IMG/VR virus record: IMGVR_UViG_3300000101_000096
Span: 1 to 30,365 of that record
Direction: 5' to 3' (one strand)
DNA: 30,365 nt
Origin: a virus
Part shown: positions 9,468 to 30,365 of the stretch, in pieces
Numbering within the stretch: position 1 is the stretch's first letter
How the letters are laid out: each line of letters starts with the position of its first letter
Notes under the pieces: model-generated
Seen by the model: only the letters and a program-made list of their open reading frames with translations
Database searches by the model: none
What the model was told of the DNA's origin: nothing
Made by a program: the position numbers and the translations under genes

Positions 9468-11837
9468 TTAATTGCTAAGTTTTGAATTTAATACAAGTGT
9501 TTGTCCGACTTTAGCTCCGTCTAGGTAAACATCTCCTCCATTACTAACAATAGATATAAGCTGTTCGAGTAGTTTTTCTACATTTCCTCCTAACTTAGTA
9601 CCACCTGCCATAGTAATTGTATCTTCTCCGAGAGGTCTAATTGTAAAGTCAGAAACTGGCATTTCTTGACTTCTAGATGTTGCTTTAGAAATATCTCTTG
9701 CTGCTAATCCGGCATCGATAGCTACAGAAGCTGCTGTACCTAAACCTGGTATAGTACTTGCAACACCAGATGCTAATTCTCCTGCAGCACCTAACCAATC
9801 TCCTTGAGATGCTCTACTTATTGCAAATCCTACTCCTGCTAATGCTCCTAAGATAGGAATTTTTTTAAGGAGAGATTTTCCTACTGCTTTAGCACCTAAT
9901 TTACCGGCTTGTTTACCTAGGCTCTTACCAGCAGCTCCTCCACCTTTTTTAAGGAGGGCATCTTTTGCTGCTTTTCCTCCAAAGCCTGCGGCTATTTGTT
10001 TTGCACTTAGTTTACCAGCGTTTTTTGTTACTGTTGATAAACCTTTGCTAGATTTCATTAAACCTTTTATACCTTTACCTGCCTTAGCAATACCTTTAAA
10101 TAATTTAGGACCTATTGCTACTCCAGCTAGTATCATAACTAAGAGCTTAACTTCCTTAATCAGCTCTTGCATAACGTTAGTTATGTTAGCAAATGGATTT
10201 CCTTCACCTGTTAAATCTTGGGATAATTTACTCATGGCAGAAGCCATATTATCCCCCATTTTTTCTTGGGCAATTGCCATTGCTTTTGCAGCAGTTATGG
10301 ATGCTTCTTTATCTGCTAATTCATCTTTACCAATTTTTCTTAATGCCTCCTCTTTAGACATCCCTTTTTTCATTAATGCATCTATCTGTTGCTGGGTGTT
10401 AAGTTTTGCTAAATCCTGTATACCGGTTTCTTCAGCTACTTTCTTTAAAGCTTCTTGTTGCATTAAAGTACCTGCTAACTCATCTCTATTCATACCTAGA
10501 GATTTAGCTAAAGCATCTTGTTGAAGAACGTTCAGGTTGGCAAACTCTGCTGCTGATCCCACATTCTTAGCTAACTCTTCTGCTAATGTTACTTGGTCGC
10601 CGGCTAATGCTGCTGATCTAGCTTTATCTAAATTTAATTCTCTTCCTAGAAGCAATTCTGCTTCCATTTCTGCTGCGATTGATGATTCGAAATCTAAAAA
10701 TCCTTCTGCAGAGGAATTTAACTGAGACATAGATAATCCAAGCTTTCTTGCATTAAATGCTGCTTTTGCTACGCCGCCTGGAAATTTACTAGTAGTTAAT
10801 AATGTAGCTTTAGACATTGAACCGATATCTTTCATTACATCTTGATATCTGATACTTTGTTCAGTATTTGCATCCATTGCTTTCAAAGTACCTATCATAG
10901 TAGTAGATTGATCAGCAAATGAACCTTCAGATAAGGCTGAGAATCTATATAAGTTTGCTGCTTCATCAGCAGAAAGACCTAGTTTAGTAGTCATTTTAGA
11001 GACGACTACTGCTGTTTTAGTACTTGCAATTGCTCCTGTTTCTAATGCTTCAGATAAAGCAAATGTTGCTTCTCTTGCCTCACGAGCTGTAACTAACGTA
11101 CCTTCAAGAGCATCTATTTGATCACGGTTAAATTTAGCTGCTTGGTTTGAAGTAATATTAAAAGTTTTTCTTACATCCTGAGTAGCTTCATCAAATCGGT
11201 TTAAACCGTCTACTGCTGTAACAAATAATGCTTTTCCTATAAGGCTAGTTATAGACATTAAACTAGCGCCTATTCCTTTCATACCGCTTCCTGTTTCAGC
11301 TACAGCATCTCTTCCTGCTTTGGCAGCTTTACCGAAATCTCCAAATAATTTATTTATTACAGGAATATCCTTTACAAATTCATCTGCTTTATCAAAAAAC
11401 TTAACCGTATTATCTATTTTTTGATAAGATTTAAGTAACTTATTAGCTTCTTTTGTTAGTTCTTTAGAAGCCTGTAATTGATCATTAAGCAAAACTGCTT
11501 TAGATTGATCAGATTTTACTTGTGATTGTGAAAGTTTATCTATTTCTCTAGCAAGACTGGTTTGGCCTTCTAGTGCTTTTTTATAAGTTTCAGTAAATTT
11601 AGCTGATTTGCTTTTGGATTTTAAATCAGAAGCAGAAAAAACAGAAAGTTTTTTTGCTAAATCAACATTCTCTTGACCTAGCTTAGTGTAGTAATCCATT
11701 TCCCCAGCAGATTCGCCAGTTTCTTTACCTACTTCCTTCATAGCAGCTTTCATCTGCTTTAGTATATCAACAAACTCTGATCCTGCTTTACGCAGTTCAT
11801 TCATTTCGTCTATTCTATCTTTAGGTTTGTCAGCCAT
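9468..11837 (-). CDS. tail tape measure protein
   Basis: At 789 residues this is the long helical ruler that fixes tail length and is ejected through the tube on infection. The first 160 residues are Lys/Glu/Gln-rich and likely coiled coil. The middle is Ala/Leu/Glu-rich and almost entirely helical (repeated ADEAANLYR-, AAEFANLN- and EALRKIG-type segments). Hydrophobic segments typical of tape measures lie near residues 560-575 (LLVMILAGVAIG), 655-675 (IPILGALAGVGFA) and 690-715. The last 25 residues form a short beta-like tail (GGDVYLDGAKVGQTLVL). It follows the chaperone pair, the classic gene order. By the usual 0.15 nm per residue it would predict a tail near 110-120 nm (an estimate). T4 gp29 is shorter (590) and this protein is not obviously its homologue. 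Confidence 0.85.
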   Translation of the reverse strand: MADKPKDRIDEMNELRKAGSEFVDILKQMKAAMKEVGKETGESAGEMDYYTKLGQENVDLAKKLSVFSASDLKSKSKSAKFTETYKKALEGQTSLAREIDKLSQSQVKSDQSKAVLLNDQLQASKELTKEANKLLKSYQKIDNTVKFFDKADEFVKDIPVINKLFGDFGKAAKAGRDAVAETGSGMKGIGASLMSITSLIGKALFVTAVDGLNRFDEATQDVRKTFNITSNQAAKFNRDQIDALEGTLVTAREAREATFALSEALETGAIASTKTAVVVSKMTTKLGLSADEAANLYRFSALSEGSFADQSTTMIGTLKAMDANTEQSIRYQDVMKDIGSMSKATLLTTSKFPGGVAKAAFNARKLGLSMSQLNSSAEGFLDFESSIAAEMEAELLLGRELNLDKARSAALAGDQVTLAEELAKNVGSAAEFANLNVLQQDALAKSLGMNRDELAGTLMQQEALKKVAEETGIQDLAKLNTQQQIDALMKKGMSKEEALRKIGKDELADKEASITAAKAMAIAQEKMGDNMASAMSKLSQDLTGEGNPFANITNVMQELIKEVKLLVMILAGVAIGPKLFKGIAKAGKGIKGLMKSSKGLSTVTKNAGKLSAKQIAAGFGGKAAKDALLKKGGGAAGKSLGKQAGKLGAKAVGKSLLKKIPILGALAGVGFAISRASQGDWLGAAGELASGVASTIPGLGTAASVAIDAGLAARDISKATSRSQEMPVSDFTIRPLGEDTITMAGGTKLGGNVEKLLEQLISIVSNGGDVYLDGAKVGQTLVLNSKLSN

Positions 11838-11862: not shown

Positions 11863-11891
11863 CTAAGGCCTCTATTATTTAGAAGCCTTAG
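11863..11891 (-). other. hairpin at the end of the chaperone ORF
   Basis: Inverted repeats CTAAGGC and GCCTTAG (7 bp) at 11863-11869 and 11885-11891 enclose an inner TCTA/TAGA pairing. The stop codon of the frameshift ORF (11877-11875) lies in the loop region. No U-run follows, so it is not a textbook terminator. It could be a processing or pausing hairpin, since a TATTTATA box follows at once. Confidence 0.4.
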
Positions 11892-12135
11892 TAGTAAAAG
11901 TAGGTCTTTTGATTTTACTAGAATTAGATACAGATTTAGCTTGTTTTGCCATTTGCTCGGTTTTTTCGTTTTCCTTATTAAAATGCTCTTGAATTTTATT
12001 AAAGGTAAACTTCCTCAACCATATAGGCATATTATAAACTGTCGGCCAATCGAATCCGCCGTTACCATGAAATACTATATCGTGAATTTGACTGAATAGT
12101 TTTATCCTATATTCAGAGGTCAGGCCAAAAAAACT
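11875..12135 (-). CDS. frameshift extension of tail chaperone (gp51/GT-like)
   Basis: This frame is bounded by an in-frame stop (TAA at 12138-12136) and TAA at 11877-11875, and it encodes 83 residues after the overlap with the upstream gene. It reads GLTSEYRIKLFSQIHDIVFH, then GNGGFDWPTVYNMPIWLRKF and a Lys/Glu/Ser-rich tail. The YNMPIWLRKF region looks like a real conserved segment. No ATG, GTG or TTG occurs before the Met at 12030-12028, which lies inside that segment and would give only 51 residues. The sequence can therefore be made in full only if ribosomes leave the upstream frame at the T7 run (12133-12127) by +1 or -2. The position between chaperone and tape measure genes matches the gpG/gpGT arrangement. 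A 51-residue product from the internal Met is the alternative. Confidence 0.65.
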   Translation of the reverse strand, partial: SFFGLTSEYRIKLFSQIHDIVFHGNGGFDWPTVYNMPIWLRKFTFNKIQEHFNKENEKTEQMAKQAKSVSNSSKIKRPTFTTKASK

Positions 12136-12856
12136 TTAACGTCACGGGGACGTCGATGTCCTCCTGGCCACCATCTAAGGTATCTACTGTTGTCACCATA
12201 TTAATATCAGGTGAAATTTCTATATATTTTTTTCTTAAAGCTCTCGCATCTTTAGCTAATAGGTAATTATCTACAAAGTTTCGAACATCTTTTTTTTCTG
12301 TTAATCCATTCACAGAGGTAATCATATGTTTTAAACGAGTAGAACTACCAGCATCAGATTTTTTATCTATTTTTTGTAACCCTATTACTTCCCTATCAAT
12401 TGCTTTTTCATCACCGTGAGTTAGTAGTTTAAAAGTAATAGTATTGTCTGTGGACGGTAATACAAACACAAATTCGTTTTTTCCGTCTTTGACTAATTTT
12501 TTATCTAAATAAGTACTTTCTAATGTTGAAAGGTCTACTGTGTGTTCCTCTCCGTTATAAGCTATTTGATAATCTTTACCGTAGGATAGTACTCTAGCAG
12601 CTACCATAATAGCGTTTTTATCTCCTAATAGTAGATCATTAAAGTTAATATCTTTATCAACTATTAAAGATTTAAGTAACCTATCAACAGCTGTTCCGTC
12701 TCTAAGGTAATTTTGGTTAGTTAAGATATCTTCTTCCTTAGCAGTCATGTACTTCATTTCTACTACACCGCTTGATAAAGGAGAATCTTCAGGATAAAGT
12801 AAGCCTTTTGAAGGTAAATCTACTTTTTCAGTAGGCAAATTAAATTTTGGTTCCAT
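12113..12856 (-). CDS. 26: gp26-like baseplate hub/tail assembly chaperone
   Basis: This is a 247-residue protein. The N-terminus FNLPTEKVDLPSKGLLYPED and the following VEMKYMTAKEEDILTNQNY are the characteristic opening of the T4-type gp26 family found in many marine T4-like phages. The rest is a compact alpha/beta domain ending KFFWPDL. In T4, gp26 acts in hub assembly. By position just before the tape measure gene, this protein also corresponds to the tail assembly chaperones of other phages. The last codons run over a TTTTTTT slip site, and an overlapping frame continues downstream; frameshifting would give a fusion of about 326-327 residues. It starts after a strong hairpin terminator and a TATTTATA box 30 nt before the ATG, so it heads a separate transcript. 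Confidence 0.8.
   Translation of the reverse strand: MEPKFNLPTEKVDLPSKGLLYPEDSPLSSGVVEMKYMTAKEEDILTNQNYLRDGTAVDRLLKSLIVDKDINFNDLLLGDKNAIMVAARVLSYGKDYQIAYNGEEHTVDLSTLESTYLDKKLVKDGKNEFVFVLPSTDNTITFKLLTHGDEKAIDREVIGLQKIDKKSDAGSSTRLKHMITSVNGLTEKKDVRNFVDNYLLAKDARALRKKYIEISPDINMVTTVDTLDGGQEDIDVPVTLKFFWPDL
12127..12136 (-). other. putative ribosomal slip site (AAG TTT TTT T)
   Basis: Codons AAG TTT TTT TGG at 12136-12125 precede the stop TGA at 12115-12113. A -1 shift would terminate at once (TTG GCC TGA). A +1 or -2 shift enters the 83-codon extension frame. Seven consecutive T on the mRNA strand are a plausible slippery stretch. Confidence 0.6.
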
Positions 12857-12973: not shown

Positions 12974-13459
12974 TTAGTAGTTTAATACGCAGTAGTCCAT
13001 TGCTACTGTAATGCTGATTTCAACAGCTTCATCAGATGTCCAGTCATATTGACCAAAGTCTCCGTTTGTTAGTATAGCACCTTTAACGATCCATTCTCCT
13101 ACAATGTCTCCTACAGGTCCTAATATATTTAGAGTTAAATCTTTCTTATAGAAATCAGAATACCCTGCTCTACCAGTTACTGATTCGTAACCCTGTCTTG
13201 CCCATTCCATTACTGCTTGAGCACCACTTGGTGTTACTGGATCGTAGAGTGTCATGGTCATATCGTCCCATTCTCTTTTTCCTCTAATTTTTCTATATGA
13301 ATTGATGTGGTCTAATTTTATAACGTTATCGGTAAAGGTAGGAGCCTTTACATTCTTTACCATAAAGGAAGGAATGTTATCGATAAGCATTACAAATCTG
13401 TTCTGCACCTTTGGTTCAAAGGCCTTAAACATAATTTCGTTTGGATCTAATACTGCCAT
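12974..13459 (-). CDS. 19: tail tube protein, gp19-like
   Basis: This 161-residue protein is almost the length of T4 gp19 (163) and matches it in character. The start MAVLDPNEIMFKAFEPKVQN is followed by RFVMLIDNIPSFMVKNVKAP, the usual tube-protein opening. EWDDMTMTLYDP near residue 64 and a terminal EISITVAMDYCVLNY strand complete the beta-barrel pattern. It polymerises into the inner tube through which DNA passes. It follows the sheath gene by 38 nt with its own TATTTATA box 16 nt upstream of the ATG, and is followed by a strong terminator. Independent promotion of a protein needed in many copies is sensible. Confidence 0.93.
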   Translation of the reverse strand: MAVLDPNEIMFKAFEPKVQNRFVMLIDNIPSFMVKNVKAPTFTDNVIKLDHINSYRKIRGKREWDDMTMTLYDPVTPSGAQAVMEWARQGYESVTGRAGYSDFYKKDLTLNILGPVGDIVGEWIVKGAILTNGDFGQYDWTSDEAVEISITVAMDYCVLNY

Positions 13460-13497: not shown

Positions 13498-15255
13498 TTA
13501 TCCATTAAATGTTGCTCCAGTAGGCTCAACTGTAAAGTCAAGTACTATAAATTCTGCAGTTTTAGCTGGCTGAATGAATATTTGACCTATCAATTGGTTT
13601 CTGTCTACAACATCTGCGGTGTTGTTCGTGTCGTCCATTACTACTCTGAAAGTATAAAGACCTTGTCTCTGTACTACTGATTCTAAGTATGGGTTTACTA
13701 TAGATAAAAATCTGTTTCTAGTTGCTACTGTATTTTGTTCAAATACTAAGTTTCTAGCTTGATCTCCTAAGAACTTCTTAAGCTCGATTAATAATCTTCT
13801 TACGTTTACTCTATCTAAAGCTGATGCTTTAGTTTGTAAAGTCTTTTGACCAAATACTGCGATGCCTTGTCCAGGGAAAGTAGCGATTGGGTTAACTTTA
13901 CCATCATACAATAAGTCTCTTTGACCTCTTGTTAGTTTTTGTTCTGCTTGAATTACTCCTACGATTCCTCCTCTTACTAATCCGGCTGGTGCAAACCAAG
14001 GTGCTGAACTATTATCTGTAAATGCATATACTCCTGGTATAACACATGAAGAAGGTACAAATATATTCCTTCCTGTTGCAGATACTACTTGAACCCATGG
14101 CCAATAAGATGCTGCATATGAACTATTCAATGATGTTGCTGTTCCTGTTACGGAATTTACTGTGGATCCGTGATTGTCTAGATCTACTACGGCAATACAG
14201 TCACCTCTAGATTCCGCTAGTGTAATCACACTATTTAATACTCCTGCTTGATCTGCGTTTTTATAGATTAAACCTGGAGTTGAGATGATATTGAAAATAT
14301 ATTCATCTTTATTATCTAAAATTGAAATTGCATCTGTGTAGTTACCTGATGTTAACCCTTGTGAGTTTGTATTAGATATAGCAGAGAAGTAATTTGCAGA
14401 AGCAACTGCATTGTCTCCAGCAGCACCGTGGAAAGATCCAGACTCTACTTTTGGAAGAGATCCTGAATAAGAATTTCCTGCTCCATTTACTCCAACTGAT
14501 ATACCATCATTAAGTAGGTACTGTGTGGTTTGAGAACCAACTGATGCTACATAAATAAAGTTAGACTTGTTTACATAGTCCCCGAAAGTTTTAATATACG
14601 TCTTAGCACCGTCTGTTGCTTTAGCCTTATATTGTGTTCCAATAACTGTTTCTATATAGTTAGAAGAATCTGGGTCTAATGAGATATTGTTAAACGTTTC
14701 TAATATAACTTTATTACTGTGGCTATCATCTCCTCTTCTTATTAGCAGAGTAAATGTACCTTTTTTGTTATCTACGTTTTGTACTTCCCATCTAATGTTG
14801 TCTCTTGATCCAGATACTAATACTCCACCACTTCCTGCAATTTCTACTCCAGCAACGGTAACACCAGTTGAAGCATTAAAGATTGCTCCTTTACCTAATG
14901 TCTTAAGAACAAAAGGTTGAATACTGTCATTTGCTGATGATGAAACGTGTGTGGTAGTTGCGTTAGTAAATGATCCTGTTACTACTCTGGTTACTAATAC
15001 TGAGCCGCCTCCTTGTTGGAAGTAGTTTTTAACTCCAATTGAAGTTAAGAATTCTTGTTTAGTTGATCCAGAAGTAAATGTCTCTCCGAACTTTCTAGCG
15101 TACTCGTTATAAGAAGTTACAATAGTAGGTTCTTCTACTGGTCCTTTCACTGTTGGTCCGATGATTGCTGCACCGGCTTCTACAGGAGCAGGGGAGATAA
15201 AAGAGATGTCATTTTCTCTCGCAAATACACCTGGGGAGATGATTGATTCTGCCAT
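13498..15255 (-). CDS. 18: tail sheath protein, gp18-like
   Basis: This 585-residue protein (T4 gp18 is 659) opens with SPGVFARENDISFISP and then AAIIGPTVKGPVEEP, the hallmark of the sheath N-terminus that docks on the tube and neighbouring subunits. The middle (about 80-330) is a Ser/Asn/Gly-rich variable domain exposed on the sheath surface. The conserved C-terminal domain holds PGQGIAVFGQKTL, RVNVRRLLIELKKFL near 470-490, and a final FIQPAKTAEFIVLDFTVEPT strand. It contracts during injection. Two TATTTATA boxes and a hairpin lie upstream in a 141-nt gap, which suggests strong independent late expression, as for T4 gene 18. Confidence 0.95.
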   Translation of the reverse strand: MAESIISPGVFARENDISFISPAPVEAGAAIIGPTVKGPVEEPTIVTSYNEYARKFGETFTSGSTKQEFLTSIGVKNYFQQGGGSVLVTRVVTGSFTNATTTHVSSSANDSIQPFVLKTLGKGAIFNASTGVTVAGVEIAGSGGVLVSGSRDNIRWEVQNVDNKKGTFTLLIRRGDDSHSNKVILETFNNISLDPDSSNYIETVIGTQYKAKATDGAKTYIKTFGDYVNKSNFIYVASVGSQTTQYLLNDGISVGVNGAGNSYSGSLPKVESGSFHGAAGDNAVASANYFSAISNTNSQGLTSGNYTDAISILDNKDEYIFNIISTPGLIYKNADQAGVLNSVITLAESRGDCIAVVDLDNHGSTVNSVTGTATSLNSSYAASYWPWVQVVSATGRNIFVPSSCVIPGVYAFTDNSSAPWFAPAGLVRGGIVGVIQAEQKLTRGQRDLLYDGKVNPIATFPGQGIAVFGQKTLQTKASALDRVNVRRLLIELKKFLGDQARNLVFEQNTVATRNRFLSIVNPYLESVVQRQGLYTFRVVMDDTNNTADVVDRNQLIGQIFIQPAKTAEFIVLDFTVEPTGATFNG

Positions 15256-21176: not shown

Positions 21177-21866
21177 TTATATAAATCTATGTTTTAATGC
21201 ATTATAATTTTGTAAAACCTCACTACTAGAAAGCCCTCTGGTGTAGGCATGTACTACTGCTATATTTGCTATTAAGTATACCCCGGTATAACCTAATCCT
21301 ATTCTAATGACAGCTGTAGTATTATTGGCCATAGGTGTATACTCATCTGTTGTTGTTTGTGTATTTACCCCATTTATATACCATTTTGCTCCTCCTGGGT
21401 ATCTTGAAACAGCAAAATGTGCCCAAGTGTTTCCAGGTATACTACTACTACCAAATCCTTTATAAGACCCACCATTTGCACCATTACTTCCATAATAATA
21501 ACTTATCCCACCTCCTTGTTCATGGGTCATAGTACCTGAACCTCCATATGCTTGATCCCAAAAATTTCTTCTTCCGGAGTTTACAGTATGATAAACCCAC
21601 ATTTCTATAGTTTGACCATCATTAAACCCTAATGAAGTTTGGTTTGAAGCTATCTGTAAGTAGTCATTACTACCATCAAAGTACATATTCTGTACTGAGG
21701 TTCCCGTATCTTGCATAGCAGGTGAACCGTAAACAGTTGCGTTATTTCCATTAGTAGTGAGATCATATACTGTTGACGAATTTGCAGTCCAACATCTTGG
21801 GGATGCAAAGTCAAAGGCTAATCCTAAATTCTGTGTCACTATAACCGGTCCTCTGTTTATTCCCAT
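21177..21866 (-). CDS. short LamG-type adhesin
   Basis: This 229-residue protein is essentially one LamG/concanavalin-like jelly-roll. Recognisable pieces are NMYFDGSNDYLQI, GQTIEMWVYHTV, WAHFAVSRYPGGAKWYING and IRIGLGYTGVY, followed by a closing VVHAYTRGLSSSEVLQNYNA. The first 20 residues (GINRGPVIVTQNLGLAFDF) match the opening of the two following adhesin genes. It is the simplest member of a three-gene paralogous series and lacks an inserted domain. Its ATG shares a base with the stop codon of the giant tail fibre (TAATG), so it may be a fibre-tip or accessory receptor-binding protein made with it. Confidence 0.75.
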   Translation of the reverse strand: MGINRGPVIVTQNLGLAFDFASPRCWTANSSTVYDLTTNGNNATVYGSPAMQDTGTSVQNMYFDGSNDYLQIASNQTSLGFNDGQTIEMWVYHTVNSGRRNFWDQAYGGSGTMTHEQGGGISYYYGSNGANGGSYKGFGSSSIPGNTWAHFAVSRYPGGAKWYINGVNTQTTTDEYTPMANNTTAVIRIGLGYTGVYLIANIAVVHAYTRGLSSSEVLQNYNALKHRFI

Positions 21867-24800
21867 TATGCATTTTTTTGTAACTTAGAAACTAAATCTT
21901 TCAATTCGTCAATTTGTGTTTGTTGTTCTTTTACTGCTTCGATTAATAATGCTGTTAATTTTTCATATTTAACTGCTTTATATCCAGTTTTTTCTCTAGT
22001 CGTTACTATTTCAGGAAGTACTTCTTCTACTTCTTGTGCTATTACCCCTATATCTGCTCCTCTATTTAATTGGAACTTTTGATCTTCTTCTTCTTTAGTA
22101 AGTTCTCTCCAATCAAAAGTGACACCGTTAATTTTCTTTATCTTATCTAATGGTTTTTCTATTAGCTTTATATTCTCTTTTAATCTCCTATCAGATGTTG
22201 AGAATGCTGTGACATCCGCGGTTGCGATTACTGCTCCGTTAACATATAAATTATGTTCAGTTGTGTGACTAGGTTGACCTACATAGTAAGAGGCGGCGGC
22301 TGATCCACCATCCATCATTAAACTTCCATAATACAAACCAAATGTACCGCTGCCGTAACTGTTTTCAACTTTATACCCACCAAGGGTCCAGAATCCATTA
22401 TACCCTATTGCTGATCTTCCTGTTCCATTGTCACACCATACCGCTTGATGTCCTCCAGCCATTGTACCGCCTGTAGTGTTGTTGGTATGTTTGTATGCTA
22501 ATCCGTATAAATTTCCAAAGTTAGTTCCAGCTGCGTGGTTTTTATATGCTGCACCCATTGACCATATATGGTCTGTCTTAGTTGAGTCGTAAGTTCCAAA
22601 GATACCTGCAGATCTTACCGAAGATACTAATCCTCCTGAGAATGAATCATCTGCATCTGATCTTAATAGAGATGCTCCTTGTATACCGTCAACTTTATCT
22701 GCATCTAATCCTGATCCTGCACCATCATTACGGTCATGCCATTGTTTTGCCCATGTAGTGAAAGTCCCATCATTCGCTCCTGATCCACCAGAATAAGTTC
22801 TTGTATAGACGTTTTCATTATAATAAGATGCTGCAATTTGGAATCCATGGTCATTACCGGTATTACTATGTCTAATATTTATCATGTTATGCCAGCTGGA
22901 ACCAGGCATATTTGAAGCAGTGTCGGATTGATAGAAACCAGATGGTACTGAGTTGTTAAAGTTAGTACTATCATTAATTTTATTAGCACCGGTACCGCTT
23001 ACAAATCTAGTACTATCTATACCGTCTAATAACATAGCATTAGAAGCAGTAGTTGCTGTGGATGCTATGGATGCAGATGTAGCAGTGGTTGCTGTTGTTG
23101 CATTTCCTGATAAGGCTCCTACAAATGTTGCCGCTTGCAAGGAACCATTACTAGTACCACCATCAACATCAAAATGCCATCTGTTAGCAACATCATCATA
23201 TCTAATGTAATCATTATTTTGAAATCTTATTTTTGCTGCAGTTCCTATTATTAACGTATTAACAGTCAATTGTGTTGCTGTATCAGCGGCATCACTTCTT
23301 AAGAAAGATGTTGAATCTATACCGTCTAGTAACATTGCATTAGAAGCAGTAGTTGCTGTGGTTGCACTTGTTGCTGTTCCTGCTGCATCTGCATATTCAG
23401 AATGAGAAGCACTTGTTGCAGAACCTACTGTTCCACTTACCCCAGATCCTAAAGCAGTAGTTGCATGAGAAGCAGTGGTTGCACTTGTAGCACTTGTAGC
23501 TGTTGATGCATTACCTGTTAAAGGTCCTATAAATGATGTTGCTGTTAAAGATCCTGTTACGTTAGTATTACCATCAATATCTACTGCTCCATCAAATGAA
23601 GATGTTCCACTTGCATTTACACTTAAGATTGGAATACCTGATATATCTGATATGTTTAGTAAGTCTCCTGTTAAATCATCTGTTATAGAGAATAACTGAC
23701 CTTGAGAACCTTGTATGTCTAAGACTGTAGACCCTGATCCATATACTTCTAACTTAGCTGAGGGAGTGGTTGTTCCTATACCAACGTTATCACACGCAAA
23801 AGTTATATTGTCTTCTGCTGAAATAGCCATATCACCTGTATTGTGATTATACCTAAATCCAGCCGCTGTTGAACTTGCTACATCTCCAAAGAATATTGTA
23901 CCTGTTTGAGAATTACCTGAAGATATTGTTATACCATTGCTTCCTAATGACCTTAGATGTAAATCATCTGCAGCTGCATTAGCTGTCGCTACTGTAGCTA
24001 ACCCTATGTTAACCCTTGCGTTACCGTCTACTGTAAAACCGTAACCACTAGCAGCTGTGCCACCATTAGTTGCATACAATAAGTAGTCACCTGTATCCCA
24101 ATCGTGATTGTATAGTTTAAGAACATTACCTCCTCCGCTAGCATTGTGAATATAAGCCGCGTAAGTGCCTGGAGTAGCTGCTCCTTGAACATGAAGCTTA
24201 CTAGTAGGGCTAGCCGTCCCAATACCTAGGTTACCATTATGGTCAAGTTCCATTTTAATGTTTGACCAATCTGCAGAACCTGATTTACTTGTGTACCAAT
24301 AGTGTGAGTGGTTTTCAGAAGCTGCATTCCCTACTGTTCTCCAATGTCCGGAATAGTAGTGTATATCATTACCGTATGATCTAATCATACCTCCGTAATT
24401 ACCGGTAATACCTAATTCTAAACTTGCATAGTTACTTGTACCTCCTATTCGTAAAGCAGCTGTTCCATTTGCTCCTCCTGCTCCTAAGTCAATATTAAAT
24501 TTTGTTGCTGGAGATTCTGTACCGATACCTAGTTTACCATCAGCAGTAAGGTTCATTAAGTTATCTGAACTCCAATGTCCGAAAGTTAGTATGTTAGTAT
24601 TACTAGCATCTGCTTTCCACTTATATCCAATATATCCTGAATTCTTAGTATTTCCTGTTTTACCTACTAGAATTATATTATTCTGATTTGCAGTTAAATT
24701 AGCACCTAAAACCTCTATTGAATGTATGAATGTAGAGGTAGAAGGATTATCTATCTGTAATGTTGCATTATTACCAGTACCTGCAGATGTAAGTACTAAA

Positions 24801-27800
24801 TCTCCAGTCATTGTATCTCCTCCAACTGCTACAAATCCTGTTGAATCAATACCATCTAATAGCATTGCATTAGAAGCAGTAGTTGCAGTAGTTGCAGTAG
24901 TTGCACTTGTTGCTGATGTTGCTGTTCCTGCTGCATCTGCATATTCAGAATGAGAAGCAGAGGTTGCTGTTGCTGCTGTTTGTGCTGCTAAACCAGAAGT
25001 AGCTCCATCATTACCATCATCCCACATTTTTCTCCAAGAACCGTGTACGCCCCCTGGGTTATCTCTCCAGTACATGTTACCGTTAGATGAAAATGCAAGT
25101 TGTGCACTATAGTTACTACTGTGCTGTCCTACAGTTATTACTCCATTTGCGTTATCTGATGTTCCTGGTTTGTTGGATGAGCTATTATTAAATCCTCTAT
25201 ATTCAAGCTGTCCTACGCTTACACTGTCTGCAACTGTATTTAAGTTTTCAGCAGATGGTCCTGTTCCTCCTGCTTTAATCTTTGCAGCTGTTCCTGAAGT
25301 GTTTTGATTCCAAGTAGGAACTGTACCTTGTAACCCTGAGTATAGAGCAGTAAGAGCATGAGAAGCTGTTACAGCTGAGGTTGCTGATACGTTTGTTAAG
25401 TTACTACCATTTCCGAAGTAAGCTGATGCAGAAACATTTCCGATAACTGAAAGTTTTTCTGTTGGAACTGCTGTCCCTATACCTACTAAACTTCCTGTAA
25501 CTACAAGAGTGTTTGTATTATAATCACCCAATGTAACAGTTGAATCAGATTCTACCTCTAGTAAAGGTGTACCCGATATGTCACTAACTGAGAATAAAGA
25601 ACCAGATAGTGAATCAGTAATTGAGAATAATTGACCTTGAGATCCATTGACTTCAAAGACTGTAGACCCTGATCCATATACTTCTAACTTAGCTGAAGGA
25701 GTAGTTGTTCCTATACCAACGTTCCCGCTAGTATCAATCATCATCCTTTCAGCTTGATTCACCCAGAAGTCTAATGTTCCACCTGCTGCTGATCCTCCTT
25801 GACCTGCTTCTATTTTTAAAGCTCTTTCTGTTGTATATAGATGACCTGTTGAGTTTGATGAGTTTTGAACTAATAGTGTTTGATTACCAGTTTGACCTGT
25901 ATGAGCTATTATTAAGCCTCTAACAGTAGAAGTTGCTAATCCATCAATTTTTATATTACCTGAATTAACTTGTAATTTTTCTCCAGGTGATGCTGTACCT
26001 ATTCCTACTTTACCTGATTTAGCTATTATAGTATTTGGATACTCAGTTCCCCCGCCCCAAGTACCAATTCTAAATGCACTACTTTCGCTACCATCAGTTA
26101 CATCAATAGCTAAAGCCGAAAGTTCCACCCAACTAAATTCGTCTCCATTAGAGTTATCCATTCTATAGTTTGTGAAACCAACGTAATCATTATCTGCAGG
26201 TGATCCTCCGTTTTTTAAGAAAGTTAATATTGGAGGACTTAAATCAGCATTTGTGTTTATAAGTTTTAAATTTGTTCCCCAAGCAGCAGCAGTGGTATTA
26301 GTTAAAGTCCCAGTCATTGTATCAGCTGCATCACTTCTTAGGAAAGATGTTGAATCTATACCATCTAATAACATTGCATTAGAAGCAGTAGTAGCAGTAG
26401 TTGCTGTTGAAGCGTTTCCAGATAAAGCTCCTACAAATGTAGCTGCAGTTACATTACCTTTAAATATACCAGAACCATCAGTATTGTTAAGCCTAATCAT
26501 TACACTGTTGGTTTGACCACCAACATTATTTTCAATACCTAAGTTATTACTTGAACGTGTAAAATCAAATGAATTTACTGGGTTGTTATGCCATATCCCC
26601 CAAGCAGTGTTGTTTTCTTTATATATCCAAGGAGATGTTTCTCCGTTAGAAGCAGCAATAGAGCGAAGAAATACAGGGTAAGTTGATGTAGCATCTGCGG
26701 TCATTCTAATTCCTTCTGCAGAAGCTCCACCGTCCATAGTGATAGCTGTTCCGTTTAAAGTAGAAGTAAGGGTACCAGTCATTGTATCTCCTCCAACTGC
26801 TACAAATCCTGTTGAATCAATACCGTCTAATAACATTGCATTAGAAGCAGTAGTTGCTGTAGCTGCATTTCCTGTTGTGTTTTGATTCCAAGTAGGAACT
26901 GTTCCTGTTAATCCTGAATACGGAACAAATGATGCTTTTAGTCTTGAATCAGTTACATTGTAAACTGTACAACTGGCTAAGTACCAAGTAAATGTGGATG
27001 TTCCTCCTGATACGTATACATGTCCACCACCACTAAAGGTTCCGCTATCTCCACAGTGTGATACTCTAGCGTACCATTCCCATTTTCCGGTTCCAGCAGT
27101 ATTAGTTAACCAGTATGTTGTATTATTTGATCCTTGTGCATTCTCTGCAGTAACTAATGATCTACCTGTTTGTAGTTTAGCTTGAAATATCTGTACAAAT
27201 GTATGATTATCTTGGGAAGATATTGTTGAAATAAATCCTCCATGCCCTGGGGATGTTGTATTTCCGTTATGTACTATTTTTAATACGTATCCAGAGCTGT
27301 TTGGTGCACTCGCTGCTAATGTTGTAGAGTCTGTTTCTCTAGTTATTACTACTCCTGTTCCTCCTGAGTTATTATATACTTGTACAAAGTTGGTTCCTGT
27401 TGTGAAATCTTCATCGTCGTGAATTTTACGTCCACTACCTCTTACTGCAGTTACTATTGGATTCCAAGGACCTCTTTCTGTTGAGTTGCTCGGCATATCA
27501 AGTAATTTCTTACCGTCAATAGTTAAGTTACTTAACGCTATACTTCCTGCAGATGCTGCATAACCAGCGTCATCGGCATATTCAGAGTGAGAAGCACTTG
27601 TTGCACTTCCTACCGTTCCACTTACCCCAGATCCTAATGCAGTAGTTGCATGAGAAGCAGTTGTAGCTGTTGTAGCGTTTCCAGATAAAGCTCCTGTAAA
27701 GGTAGTTGCTTGAAATGAAGATGCTGAAACGTTACTGCTTGCATCAACACTCATTCTGGTTGTTCCGGCTACCATTAAATGTGTAGGATGATTACTCATA

Positions 27801-30365
27801 GTACCCAGCTTACCGGCAGCGTGACCATTATGAGCATACATTGTTGTAATAATACCGTCTCCAGTACTCTGTCTCGCATCTATTCTAGCGTGACCTGTTC
27901 CTGCTACATTTATTCTAGCGTTCCAGCTACCGTCATTAGATACGCTAGCGTAGTTATTTCCGAATTCAGTATATGAGTTAGAAAATGAAACTACCCCTGT
28001 TGCTAAAGCATTTGAGCCGAGTCTAAAATAGTCTGTTGAATCTAAACCATCTAACAACATTGCATTGGATGCAGTTGTAGCTGTTCCTGTTGTATTTTGA
28101 TTCCATGTAGGGACTGTTCCTGTAACTGAAAGATTTCCTAATATGTTTAAAGATCCTGTAAAGTCGTGATTATCACCTGATGTATCTCCAAATTTAGTTG
28201 AACCTGATTCGTATATTATTGATGAACTTATTAGTTCACTTTTAAATTCTTGTGCTGTTAATGTACCTGCTACAGTTACATCTCCTGTGAATGCTGCATC
28301 TCCGTTTTCAATAGTTAACCAGGTAGCTGAGCTAGCTCCAGTGTTGTCGCTTGCTTTAAAAAGAAAAGCTTTATTTCCGGTTGTACTAGACCAAATATCA
28401 AAAATTGATTCATGATTACCAGTAGTTTCATCCTGTCTGAATACAATCCTGTTTGCTCTATCTTCAACTTTAAATCCAATATACTCACCGTTATTTCTTC
28501 CGAACCTTACATTTGGAGTTGTTGAAGCATCTGTTGTTTTAACCAGTAGCCCTACATCTCCTGCTCCTATAGTGATATCTAAATTATTGTCTATACTTAC
28601 AGCACCGTTGAAGTAACTTGTACCGTTATTATAGAAATCATATGAACCATGTACACCGGTCGACATAACAGCAAATTTGCCTGTTGAATTACCTGTTGGC
28701 ATGCTTACATTACCTGCAAAAGTAGCATTTTGTGAAGTATCTAAGTGTATAGTTCTAGTACCACCTGACCATATATTTGTATCTTGGTTGTTGTAGATGT
28801 TAAATGATTGCGCTGCTCCTCCGGTTTGTGTTCTAGTCGAACTATTTCTCCATATCTCTGCTCCTCCAACGTCACTTTGGATTCTTAAAGAAGTATATGC
28901 TGCCGAACCAGCATTGCTGTTTTTATGATCAATAAAACCTCCGCTATTAACATTGGTATCAAAAGTTGCAGCACCGTTTATATCTAAACTACCACCTTCA
29001 ACTTCACCAGATGTTTGTATGTTACCAGCATTATACATTCTAAACATAACGCTAGAATCTGTTTCGTTGTAAAAGTAAATTCCACTAGAATCATGTTCTA
29101 TTGAAATACCTTTACCACCTGTTCTATCAAAAGACATTTTTTTATCTGACCCTGCGTTATTTACATTAACAGTACCACCGGTAGTTACACTACCTGCAAA
29201 AGTTGCGTTACCCGCACCATTAAACGCTAACTCTTCTCTGTTTGAATCTGTTTCATTTACTATTCTTAAACCTTCTGAATTGCCTAAACATATTCTATAT
29301 GTATCATGCCCAGTTCTTGTTAATTGATAACCATTAGCATATGTCGTACCTTGAGCAGCTATAAATTTAGGTGCTTGAGTACTTCCTGCAAAAGTTGCAT
29401 TACCGCTTGAATCAAACTCGGTGTTTCCTCCAGATACAACAAAGTTACCGCTTCCGGCTATTCGAGGTCTAAAATGTATATCACCTGCATATCCATTAAA
29501 GTATACATTATTATTATTTTCGTATACTGTAAATCTATCAGATCCGGCTTCTCTTAATCTTAGGTAGTAGTTATCTGTTCCTCCACTAGTATCTATATTT
29601 AATACATTGTACTTTGTATCTTCATACCATTTATCCACAAAGTAAGCGTCTCCACCATAGTAGTTATTAGAGAAAATATGGGATATTCTTGTAGAAGTTG
29701 TACTAAAATCAGTTAGTGTATACCTAACATGTGTAGTTGCTGTACCTCCTGAACTAAATGTTACGTAATAGGCGCTTTTTGCATAATCTGATATATCTCC
29801 TCGAGAAGTATAGGTAGTACCATCAGTTGATGTTTCTATTTCAATACTCTTTGCTCTCCATGCTCTTGAACTAAAAGCTATTCCTGCTCCTGAACTGTGT
29901 TGAAAATTTCTACCTGATACAGTAATCACAATGGTGTCAGTAGTAGCTACACCTATGCTTTGCATGCTGTTTGTAGATCTAAAGCAATTGCTACTTAACG
30001 AAAATGCTGTTCCGTTTTTAGTTGCAGATACTGTAAATCTTTCTGTTGCACCAGCATATGCATTTTCTACTGCACCGGGGAGTATAAAATTTTTGGTTCC
30101 GTTCTCTGCGCCTTGTTCTGCTACGAATCCAGCAAGTGTAGATAACCCTGTTCCGTTGTTATTTAAAGTACCGTACAAGCTACCGTTAATAACCGTATCA
30201 TCATCTTGTGAATTACCTAATATACTATTCCCCTGTGTTGTGAGAGTCCCTGTTATTGTTAGGTTACCTGTTATAGAAGCGTTTCCGGTATGTGACCCAT
30301 CCCATTCTGCTGTTACTCCTGTTATGTTACTACCATCACCGTGAAAATTGCCTGCGTAAACATTA
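21866..30365 (-). CDS. giant tail fibre with S74 chaperone, 5' end missing
   Basis: The frame is open to the right window edge, so the N-terminus lies outside. The codon at 30178 is TTG and 62 further codons continue upstream (NVYAGNFHGDGSNITG...), so it is not the start. At least 2,830 residues are present. Most are Ser/Thr/Gly/Asn-rich beta-repeats: NATFAG blocks, GIGTTTPSAKLEV blocks, six SNAMLLDGIDST blocks and TVPTWNQNT blocks. Two pyocin-knob-like segments (GFYQSDTASN... and YRGFNNSSSN...) lie near plus 22730-22970 and 25010-25270. A carbohydrate-binding-like insert is near 26940-27480. The C-terminus holds a peptidase S74 chaperone (STSDRRLKENIKLIEKPLDK, then GVIAQEVEEVLPEIV, 22000-22200), with the Ser-Lys dyad spaced S-x4-K, then a trimeric coiled coil. 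It binds the host and cleaves off its chaperone after trimer folding. Confidence 0.88.
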   Translation of the reverse strand, partial: NVYAGNFHGDGSNITGVTAEWDGSHTGNASITGNLTITGTLTTQGNSILGNSQDDDTVINGSLYGTLNNNGTGLSTLAGFVAEQGAENGTKNFILPGAVENAYAGATERFTVSATKNGTAFSLSSNCFRSTNSMQSIGVATTDTIVITVSGRNFQHSSGAGIAFSSRAWRAKSIEIETSTDGTTYTSRGDISDYAKSAYYVTFSSGGTATTHVRYTLTDFSTTSTRISHIFSNNYYGGDAYFVDKWYEDTKYNVLNIDTSGGTDNYYLRLREAGSDRFTVYENNNNVYFNGYAGDIHFRPRIAGSGNFVVSGGNTEFDSSGNATFAGSTQAPKFIAAQGTTYANGYQLTRTGHDTYRICLGNSEGLRIVNETDSNREELAFNGAGNATFAGSVTTGGTVNVNNAGSDKKMSFDRTGGKGISIEHDSSGIYFYNETDSSVMFRMYNAGNIQTSGEVEGGSLDINGAATFDTNVNSGGFIDHKNSNAGSAAYTSLRIQSDVGGAEIWRNSSTRTQTGGAAQSFNIYNNQDTNIWSGGTRTIHLDTSQNATFAGNVSMPTGNSTGKFAVMSTGVHGSYDFYNNGTSYFNGAVSIDNNLDITIGAGDVGLLVKTTDASTTPNVRFGRNNGEYIGFKVEDRANRIVFRQDETTGNHESIFDIWSSTTGNKAFLFKASDNTGASSATWLTIENGDAAFTGDVTVAGTLTAQEFKSELISSSIIYESGSTKFGDTSGDNHDFTGSLNILGNLSVTGTVPTWNQNTTGTATTASNAMLLDGLDSTDYFRLGSNALATGVVSFSNSYTEFGNNYASVSNDGSWNARINVAGTGHARIDARQSTGDGIITTMYAHNGHAAGKLGTMSNHPTHLMVAGTTRMSVDASSNVSASSFQATTFTGALSGNATTATTASHATTALGSGVSGTVGSATSASHSEYADDAGYAASAGSIALSNLTIDGKKLLDMPSNSTERGPWNPIVTAVRGSGRKIHDDEDFTTGTNFVQVYNNSGGTGVVITRETDSTTLAASAPNSSGYVLKIVHNGNTTSPGHGGFISTISSQDNHTFVQIFQAKLQTGRSLVTAENAQGSNNTTYWLTNTAGTGKWEWYARVSHCGDSGTFSGGGHVYVSGGTSTFTWYLASCTVYNVTDSRLKASFVPYSGLTGTVPTWNQNTTGNAATATTASNAMLLDGIDSTGFVAVGGDTMTGTLTSTLNGTAITMDGGASAEGIRMTADATSTYPVFLRSIAASNGETSPWIYKENNTAWGIWHNNPVNSFDFTRSSNNLGIENNVGGQTNSVMIRLNNTDGSGIFKGNVTAATFVGALSGNASTATTATTASNAMLLDGIDSTSFLRSDAADTMTGTLTNTTAAAWGTNLKLINTNADLSPPILTFLKNGGSPADNDYVGFTNYRMDNSNGDEFSWVELSALAIDVTDGSESSAFRIGTWGGGTEYPNTIIAKSGKVGIGTASPGEKLQVNSGNIKIDGLATSTVRGLIIAHTGQTGNQTLLVQNSSNSTGHLYTTERALKIEAGQGGSAAGGTLDFWVNQAERMMIDTSGNVGIGTTTPSAKLEVYGSGSTVFEVNGSQGQLFSITDSLSGSLFSVSDISGTPLLEVESDSTVTLGDYNTNTLVVTGSLVGIGTAVPTEKLSVIGNVSASAYFGNGSNLTNVSATSAVTASHALTALYSGLQGTVPTWNQNTSGTAAKIKAGGTGPSAENLNTVADSVSVGQLEYRGFNNSSSNKPGTSDNANGVITVGQHSSNYSAQLAFSSNGNMYWRDNPGGVHGSWRKMWDDGNDGATSGLAAQTAATATSASHSEYADAAGTATSATSATTATTATTASNAMLLDGIDSTGFVAVGGDTMTGDLVLTSAGTGNNATLQIDNPSTSTFIHSIEVLGANLTANQNNIILVGKTGNTKNSGYIGYKWKADASNTNILTFGHWSSDNLMNLTADGKLGIGTESPATKFNIDLGAGGANGTAALRIGGTSNYASLELGITGNYGGMIRSYGNDIHYYSGHWRTVGNAASENHSHYWYTSKSGSADWSNIKMELDHNGNLGIGTASPTSKLHVQGAATPGTYAAYIHNASGGGNVLKLYNHDWDTGDYLLYATNGGTAASGYGFTVDGNARVNIGLATVATANAAADDLHLRSLGSNGITISSGNSQTGTIFFGDVASSTAAGFRYNHNTGDMAISAEDNITFACDNVGIGTTTPSAKLEVYGSGSTVLDIQGSQGQLFSITDDLTGDLLNISDISGIPILSVNASGTSSFDGAVDIDGNTNVTGSLTATSFIGPLTGNASTATSATSATTASHATTALGSGVSGTVGSATSASHSEYADAAGTATSATTATTASNAMLLDGIDSTSFLRSDAADTATQLTVNTLIIGTAAKIRFQNNDYIRYDDVANRWHFDVDGGTSNGSLQAATFVGALSGNATTATTATSASIASTATTASNAMLLDGIDSTRFVSGTGANKINDSTNFNNSVPSGFYQSDTASNMPGSSWHNMINIRHSNTGNDHGFQIAASYYNENVYTRTYSGGSGANDGTFTTWAKQWHDRNDGAGSGLDADKVDGIQGASLLRSDADDSFSGGLVSSVRSAGIFGTYDSTKTDHIWSMGAAYKNHAAGTNFGNLYGLAYKHTNNTTGGTMAGGHQAVWCDNGTGRSAIGYNGFWTLGGYKVENSYGSGTFGLYYGSLMMDGGSAAASYYVGQPSHTTEHNLYVNGAVIATADVTAFSTSDRRLKENIKLIEKPLDKIKKINGVTFDWRELTKEEEDQKFQLNRGADIGVIAQEVEEVLPEIVTTREKTGYKAVKYEKLTALLIEAVKEQQTQIDELKDLVSKLQKNA
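23721..23788 (-). repeat. 68-bp near-identical tail fibre repeat, copy 1
   Basis: This 68-bp stretch, encoding part of VGIGTTTPSAKLEVYGSGST, differs from copy 2 at 25656-25723 by only two bases, both silent. Such DNA identity inside one gene favours recombination between copies. Confidence 0.85.
25656..25723 (-). repeat. 68-bp near-identical tail fibre repeat, copy 2
   Basis: Partner of the repeat at 23721-23788, with two silent differences over 68 bp. Unequal exchange between the two would delete or duplicate about 1.9 kb of fibre in frame (1935 bp, divisible by three). Confidence 0.85.

Follow-up and report, generated by a model that had tools for sequence, protein, structure and literature searches.

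A very probable programmed frameshift into the +1 frame in the gp26-like tail assembly chaperone gene of a clade of T4-type phages

Sequence comparison indicates that the gp26-like gene described here very probably undergoes a programmed frameshift into the +1 frame, by which a single gene would yield a short and a long tail assembly chaperone. The gene lies in the window, the complete 30,365-nucleotide stretch of viral DNA that was analysed (IMG/VR record IMGVR_UViG_3300000101_000096). Most ribosomes would complete frame 0 and release a short form of 247 residues, while a minority would move one base forward on a run of seven T and then continue in the +1 frame, giving a long form, about 326 residues in length, with the junction LTLKFFGLTSEYR. 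In the P site, tRNA-Phe on UUU (in some relatives, tRNA-Leu on CUU) would re-pair with the overlapping codon one base on, with the Trp codon UGG waiting in the A site during the slip. An internal AGGAGG motif probably stimulates this event, and a hairpin would absorb much of the 26-nt spacer and draw the motif closer to the P site. If lambda G/GT is a guide, the tape measure protein would be coated by the short form, and tube subunits would be brought in through the extension.

Organization of the chaperone locus

The frame-0 gene (12113..12856, minus strand) encodes the gp26-like short form, which scores above the curated cut-off of PF12322 in a profile search (28.4 bits against 24.5) and also matches phrog_150 (7.9e-12). 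Its 3' end reads GTG ACG TTA AAG TTT TTT TGG CCT GAC CTC TGA, with the stop codon at 12115-12113 and the T7 run at 12127..12133 (minus strand). The extension frame, +1/-2 relative to gp26, reads TAA / AGT TTT TTT GGC CTG ACC ... and spans 86 codons from stop to stop (11875..12135, minus strand; stop at 11877-11875), 83 of them after the slip; its protein sequence is conserved beginning at the junction. The -1 frame at the run reads TTT TTT TTG GCC TGA and stops immediately. No ATG, GTG or TTG was found in the window's extension frame ahead of the internal Met, which lies 85 nt 3' of the frame-0 stop within the conserved VYNMPIWLRKF block. A preliminary description of this DNA had reported a gp26-like gene ending just past AAG TTT TTT TGG, a third frame opening at the run for 83 codons, an immediate -1 stop and the lack of a start codon ahead of a Met inside the conserved part, all of which are borne out on the minus strand (gene at 12856-12113, open frame at 12135-11875).

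The chaperone gene sits between the genes for the tail tube (12974..13459, minus strand; phrog_4542, 1.3e-23) and the tape measure protein (9468..11837, minus strand; phrog_167, tail length tape measure protein, 2.6e-5), with the tail sheath gene further upstream (13498..15255, minus strand; PF04984, 3e-14). The order sheath, tube, chaperone, extension, tape measure is shared with the annotated relative immuto, and the position directly before the tape measure gene, to which the preliminary description had drawn attention, holds in both. Elsewhere in the window, an open frame of at least 2832 codons (21866-30364, minus strand) runs off the window end.

Frame relation and conservation of the extension

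Chaperone and extension were matched by tblastn in Flavobacterium phages (immuto), Microcystis phage Mel-JY01 and a 484-kb uncultured phage, and IMG/VR was scanned with each part separately, the best 80 loci being retained for each. In each of the best 80 loci retrieved with gp26 as the only query, the extension is present in the same relative frame, which excludes a chance origin of the extension. The extension lies in the +1/-2 frame in all 162 loci that have both parts, those from IMG/VR being among the best 80 for each part. These loci collapse to 88 clusters under 85% identity; as phylogeny is not considered in the cluster counts, the P values given below are optimistic.

Protein-level conservation with variable third bases extends over the FFGLT, QIH.IVFHG and GGYDW blocks of the extension, all 5' of the internal Met, and in 42 of the 88 clusters a start codon is absent as far as extension residue 9. 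The extension alone is predicted to form three helices, at modest confidence (pLDDT 71.5), and no significant structural match to this predicted fold was found.

Constraint at the slip site

The junction is nearly invariant. Codon 1 of the run is TTT in 87 of the 88 clusters and codon 2 is TTT in 82, CTT in five and CTA in one, followed by TGG in 87 clusters and CCT in 88. In immuto the site reads GTT AGC TTT CTT TGG. Every Phe codon at codon 1 is TTT (87/87), against 85% TTT elsewhere; where Asn precedes the run it is encoded by AAC (52 clusters) and never by AAT (0 of the 88 clusters), AAC making up 32% of Asn codons elsewhere; and the base preceding the run is never T in the 88 clusters. 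Synonymous identity over the last five frame-0 codons scored is 0.99, the maximum of the gene, against a gene mean of 0.53. The constancy of CCT and GAC is accounted for by the extension frame (Leu and Thr). The third bases of AAC and TTT are unaccounted for by that frame, and the slip itself is therefore indicated. In members of the window clade the second ORF overlaps the first in a different frame, and the junction holds a slippery site. The preliminary description had proposed a programmed frameshift in this gene and had named three signs to seek in relatives: a conserved T run, an extension already conserved ahead of the internal Met, and constrained synonymous positions in the overlap. 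Each is observed, and with the frame relation common to all loci and the constrained junction the proposal is supported.

The upstream AGGAGG motif and hairpin

Two elements that the preliminary description missed lie upstream of the run. An AGGAGG (56 clusters) or GGAGG (25 clusters) motif occurs within 45 nt before the run in 81 of the 88 clusters, against a background of 0.9% of 48-nt windows elsewhere, and it mostly ends 26 or 23 nt before the first T; in the window, AGGAGG (12160..12165, minus strand) ends 26 nt before it. Since the residue preceding GAG varies across clusters (E, G, Q, K, R, M or V) and three exceptions retain GGAGG in a different codon phase, selection on the RNA is indicated. 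The second element is a predicted 6-bp hairpin in the spacer (GACGUC/GACGUU; 12138..12154, minus strand), the motif-to-run spacer of the window having a predicted folding energy of about -5.9 kcal/mol. Across the 88 clusters this spacer folds at -3.75 kcal/mol versus -1.83 kcal/mol in synonymous shuffles (P 5e-10, phylogeny ignored), and it likewise folds more strongly than base shuffles (P 1e-9, phylogeny again ignored). The effect is strongest here among the stretches tested, and RNA structure downstream of the run is only slightly enriched. A fixed hairpin register was searched for across the clusters and not found, the tendency to fold alone being conserved; a folding tendency is therefore claimed rather than a single conserved structure. 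RNAalifold applied to five junctions gave a long G-U-rich pairing between motif and T run, which was dropped, its covariation being unconvincing.

Stimulatory Shine-Dalgarno (SD)-like motifs act at a spacing of about 3 nt in +1 shifts and about 10-14 nt in -1 shifts. The AGGAGG of the clade, ending 26 or 23 nt before the run, does not lie about 3 nt from the slip codon, and its 26-nt spacing falls outside both of these stimulatory ranges. The effective spacing is uncertain because the hairpin register differs between relatives. AGGAGG and hairpin together probably act as the stimulator of the slip.

Direction of the shift and alternative explanations

A shift of +1 is considered the likelier direction, a preference founded on the distant relatives LR756508 (AAC TTT CTA TTC) and Streptococcus phage GXN1 (TTC TTT CGT), which re-pair only at +1: there tRNA-Phe re-pairs one base forward, from UUU to UUC, and not two bases back, assuming that the shift occurs at that codon. 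Re-pairing one base forward in the P site is possible in the members examined, through UUU_U, UUU_C or CUU_U. A -2 slip as in phage Mu, in which the P-site tRNA-Phe would move back two bases and add one extra Phe (LKFFFGLT), seems rather unlikely. Such a slip requires TTT at codon 1, where TTT is strictly kept, a strictness unneeded for a +1 slip at codon 2 alone, and a distant SD usually pulls ribosomes backward. However, TTT at codon 1 also permits a +1 slip there, so that its strict conservation fits either -2 or +1 at codon 1, and in LR756508 and GXN1 re-pairing two bases back is impossible. The absence of T before the run also speaks against -2; a non-T base would block a tandem -1 slip and is no help to a -2 slip.

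It is very improbable that the extension is instead a separate protein, without fusion, started at a conserved CTG in the overlap or at the internal Met. In 85 of the 88 clusters CTG stands at codon 5 of the extension, the internal Met is common among the clusters, and T4 gene 25 is served by a split SD lying where gene 26 ends, in the account given by PMC3014915; but the CTG is replaced by CTA in three clusters and is absent from SP-15 and RM378, the residues before the Met are as well conserved as those after it, and the immuto extension has no internal Met. Moreover, the AGGAGG motif lies 36 nt ahead of the CTG, initiation leaves the constraint on the T run and on the preceding base unexplained, and T4 gp51 carries a homologous cyanophage-type tail in fused form. 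Equally improbable is slippage of RNA polymerase on the seven identical bases, which would give mixed mRNA and a fusion through transcription: the run is broken at codon 2 in six of the 88 clusters (CTT in five, CTA in one) and at codon 1 in one, with frame and extension kept, seven bases are short for efficient polymerase slippage, and the upstream AGGAGG implicates ribosomes. A sequencing error or decayed gene, suggested by the coincidence of a homopolymer with the frame change, is practically negligible, being refuted by the same frame relation in 162 loci, including the annotated isolate genomes immuto and Mel-JY01.

Relation to cyanophage and T4 chaperones

The programmed shift into the +1 frame proposed for the window belongs to a wider family. 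The gp26-gp51 overlap of Kyanoviridae resembles the window in its homologous chaperone, in an other-frame extension at a T run and in an upstream SD-like motif, but differs in using the -1 frame, with the motif 8-11 nt upstream rather than 26 nt. All 60 distinct cyanophage junctions examined place the extension in the -1 frame at T TTT TTC, and 56 of them are preceded at 8-11 nt by an SD-like motif. The -1 version at T TTT TTC is found in cyanophages and some Straboviridae, and the -1 form also fits phages pf16, ACP17, VH7D, P19, OLIVR6 and LR756511, while the +1/-2 form fits SP-15, GXN1 and RM378. A slip-coupled chaperone in a T4-like phage, which the preliminary description had thought notable, is thus not rare, since it fits every cyanophage junction examined. 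Annotated cyanophage gp51 falls within the -1 extension of gp26, many junctions having no nearby ATG (locus L170, 6125-6364; loci L171-L250), and to judge from these frames it looks mis-annotated as a separate gene.

T4 itself has two genes and no shift, as previously stated, whereas the window has one gene and a proposed shift into the +1 frame. The two T4 proteins are nevertheless not unrelated: both gp26 and gp51 fall in PF12322, the family of the window's chaperone, and in phrog_150, and they represent short and long forms side by side, gp51 corresponding to the cyanophage long form. In hhalign comparisons the alignment of the cyanophage fusion with T4 gp51 runs on into the C-terminal tail of gp51 (99.1%), while that with T4 gp26 stops near the junction (99.2%). 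The window-clade fusion gave no significant hhalign match to either T4 protein, and direct profile comparison of its extension with the gp51 tail was likewise not significant (2.3%); homology between window and T4 therefore rests on PF12322, phrog_150 and the cyanophage bridge, in which the window-clade extension scores 68.5% against the cyanophage extension and the latter matches the gp51 tail (98.2%; hhalign). In a midpoint-rooted tree with several long branches, gp26 and gp51 of T4-like phages form one clade (100/99), and VH7D and P19 fall outside it, among the frameshifting phages. On these sequence relationships T4 gp26 and gp51 are paralogues that match the short and long forms, and the tree together with the gp51 tail alignment makes the T4 genes look like a duplication that replaced the frameshift; by the same comparisons, the chaperone frameshift is old.

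Some junctions depart from these patterns. Stenotrophomonas phage IME-SM1 (locus L253, 3661-4020) has T5 rather than T6 and an extension in a relative frame different from that of its relatives, which reflects either a homopolymer error or a real switch. Vibrio phage D506 (L256) and Serratia phage Kevin (L257) have a -1 extension without T TTT TTC, and the overlapping TAATG of D506 makes coupled initiation possible. The T4 gene 26-25 junction (locus L166, 7801-7860, minus strand) has a split SD and hairpin at the 3' end of gene 26, the place occupied in the window clade by the AGGAGG, hairpin and slip site; the two signals at the same gene end may have a shared origin or be a coincidence.

Comparison with other recoding systems

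A -1 slippery heptamer (X XXY YYZ) does not describe the site, as the extension is +1/-2 in all loci and the -1 frame ends at GCC TGA. In prfB +1 frameshifting, CUU_UGA resembles the CUU_UGG variants of the clade, and a P-site slip, a slow A-site codon and an upstream SD-like motif are common to both; prfB differs in having its SD 3 nt away and a stop codon, compared with 26 nt and a sense Trp codon in the window. The split ribosome-binding site of T4 gene 25 is likewise comparable, combining an SD, a hairpin and a P-site codon at the 3' terminus of the gp26 gene, but it serves initiation of gene 25 and not frameshifting; its hairpin is described as cutting the SD spacing from 27 to 11 nt (Malys and Nivinskas 2009, as cited in PMC3014915). 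Lambda G/GT (-1) and P2 E/E' and Mu (-2) share with the window the position before the tape measure gene and the short/long logic (PMC5009743), and differ in protein family (by the present tests), in slip site and in having no AGGAGG at 26 nt with a hairpin.

A 2016 review treats T4 as an exception to tail-chaperone frameshifting (PMC5009743), and for phage 0305phi8-36 a two-gene chaperone without frameshift has been proposed (PMC2147016). The T4-like chaperone genes were identified by Vladimirov, Gautam and Davidson (2022, Virology 566:9-15), as cited in PMC10885494 for the presence in some T4-like phages of two genes, a short and a long one, and in PMC12846349 for poly-T frameshift signals in T4-like phages. 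As represented by these citing papers, the short/long logic of gp26 and gp51 was therefore already known. Neither the +1/-2 form nor the AGGAGG-hairpin layout was found mentioned in the literature searched, which covered few subscription journals.

Shine-Dalgarno-poor genes, host and bS21

The 21 minus-strand genes of the window have A-rich starts essentially without an SD site, like the rest of the clade, in which none of 87 gp26 starts has an SD and one as short as 4 nt precedes 8 of 332 long ORFs. Such starts fit Bacteroidota-type translation and suggest a Bacteroidota host for the window; the host of immuto is Flavobacterium. A gene for ribosomal protein bS21 is present in four of the five clade-related records longer than 150 kb, namely Mel-JY01, LR756508 and two records containing clade loci (L071 and L122), and none was found in the shorter clade records searched, which are fragments. 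In Bacteroidia ribosomes bS21 helps to hide the anti-SD, and prfB frameshifting in F. johnsoniae is low and is higher in bS21 mutants. A rather doubtful proposal is that the slip is stimulated by SD/anti-SD pairing across the hairpin-shortened spacer, in phages that make no use of SD sites for their own genes, at a rate that would depend on whether the 16S rRNA tail is left free by bS21. If true, phage-encoded bS21 could couple the ratio of the chaperones to ribosome state in the infected cell.

Implications

The proposed shift would add a large group of aquatic T4-type phages to those with frameshifted tail chaperones, with a homologous gene shifting forward in some lineages and backward in others, and it lends support to the view that the separate genes 26 and 51 of T4 replaced a frameshift. 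The AGGAGG-hairpin-slip layout, in genomes poor in SD sites, offers a testable claim on how slippage of elongating ribosomes may be induced, perhaps in hosts whose anti-SD pairing is believed to be blocked.
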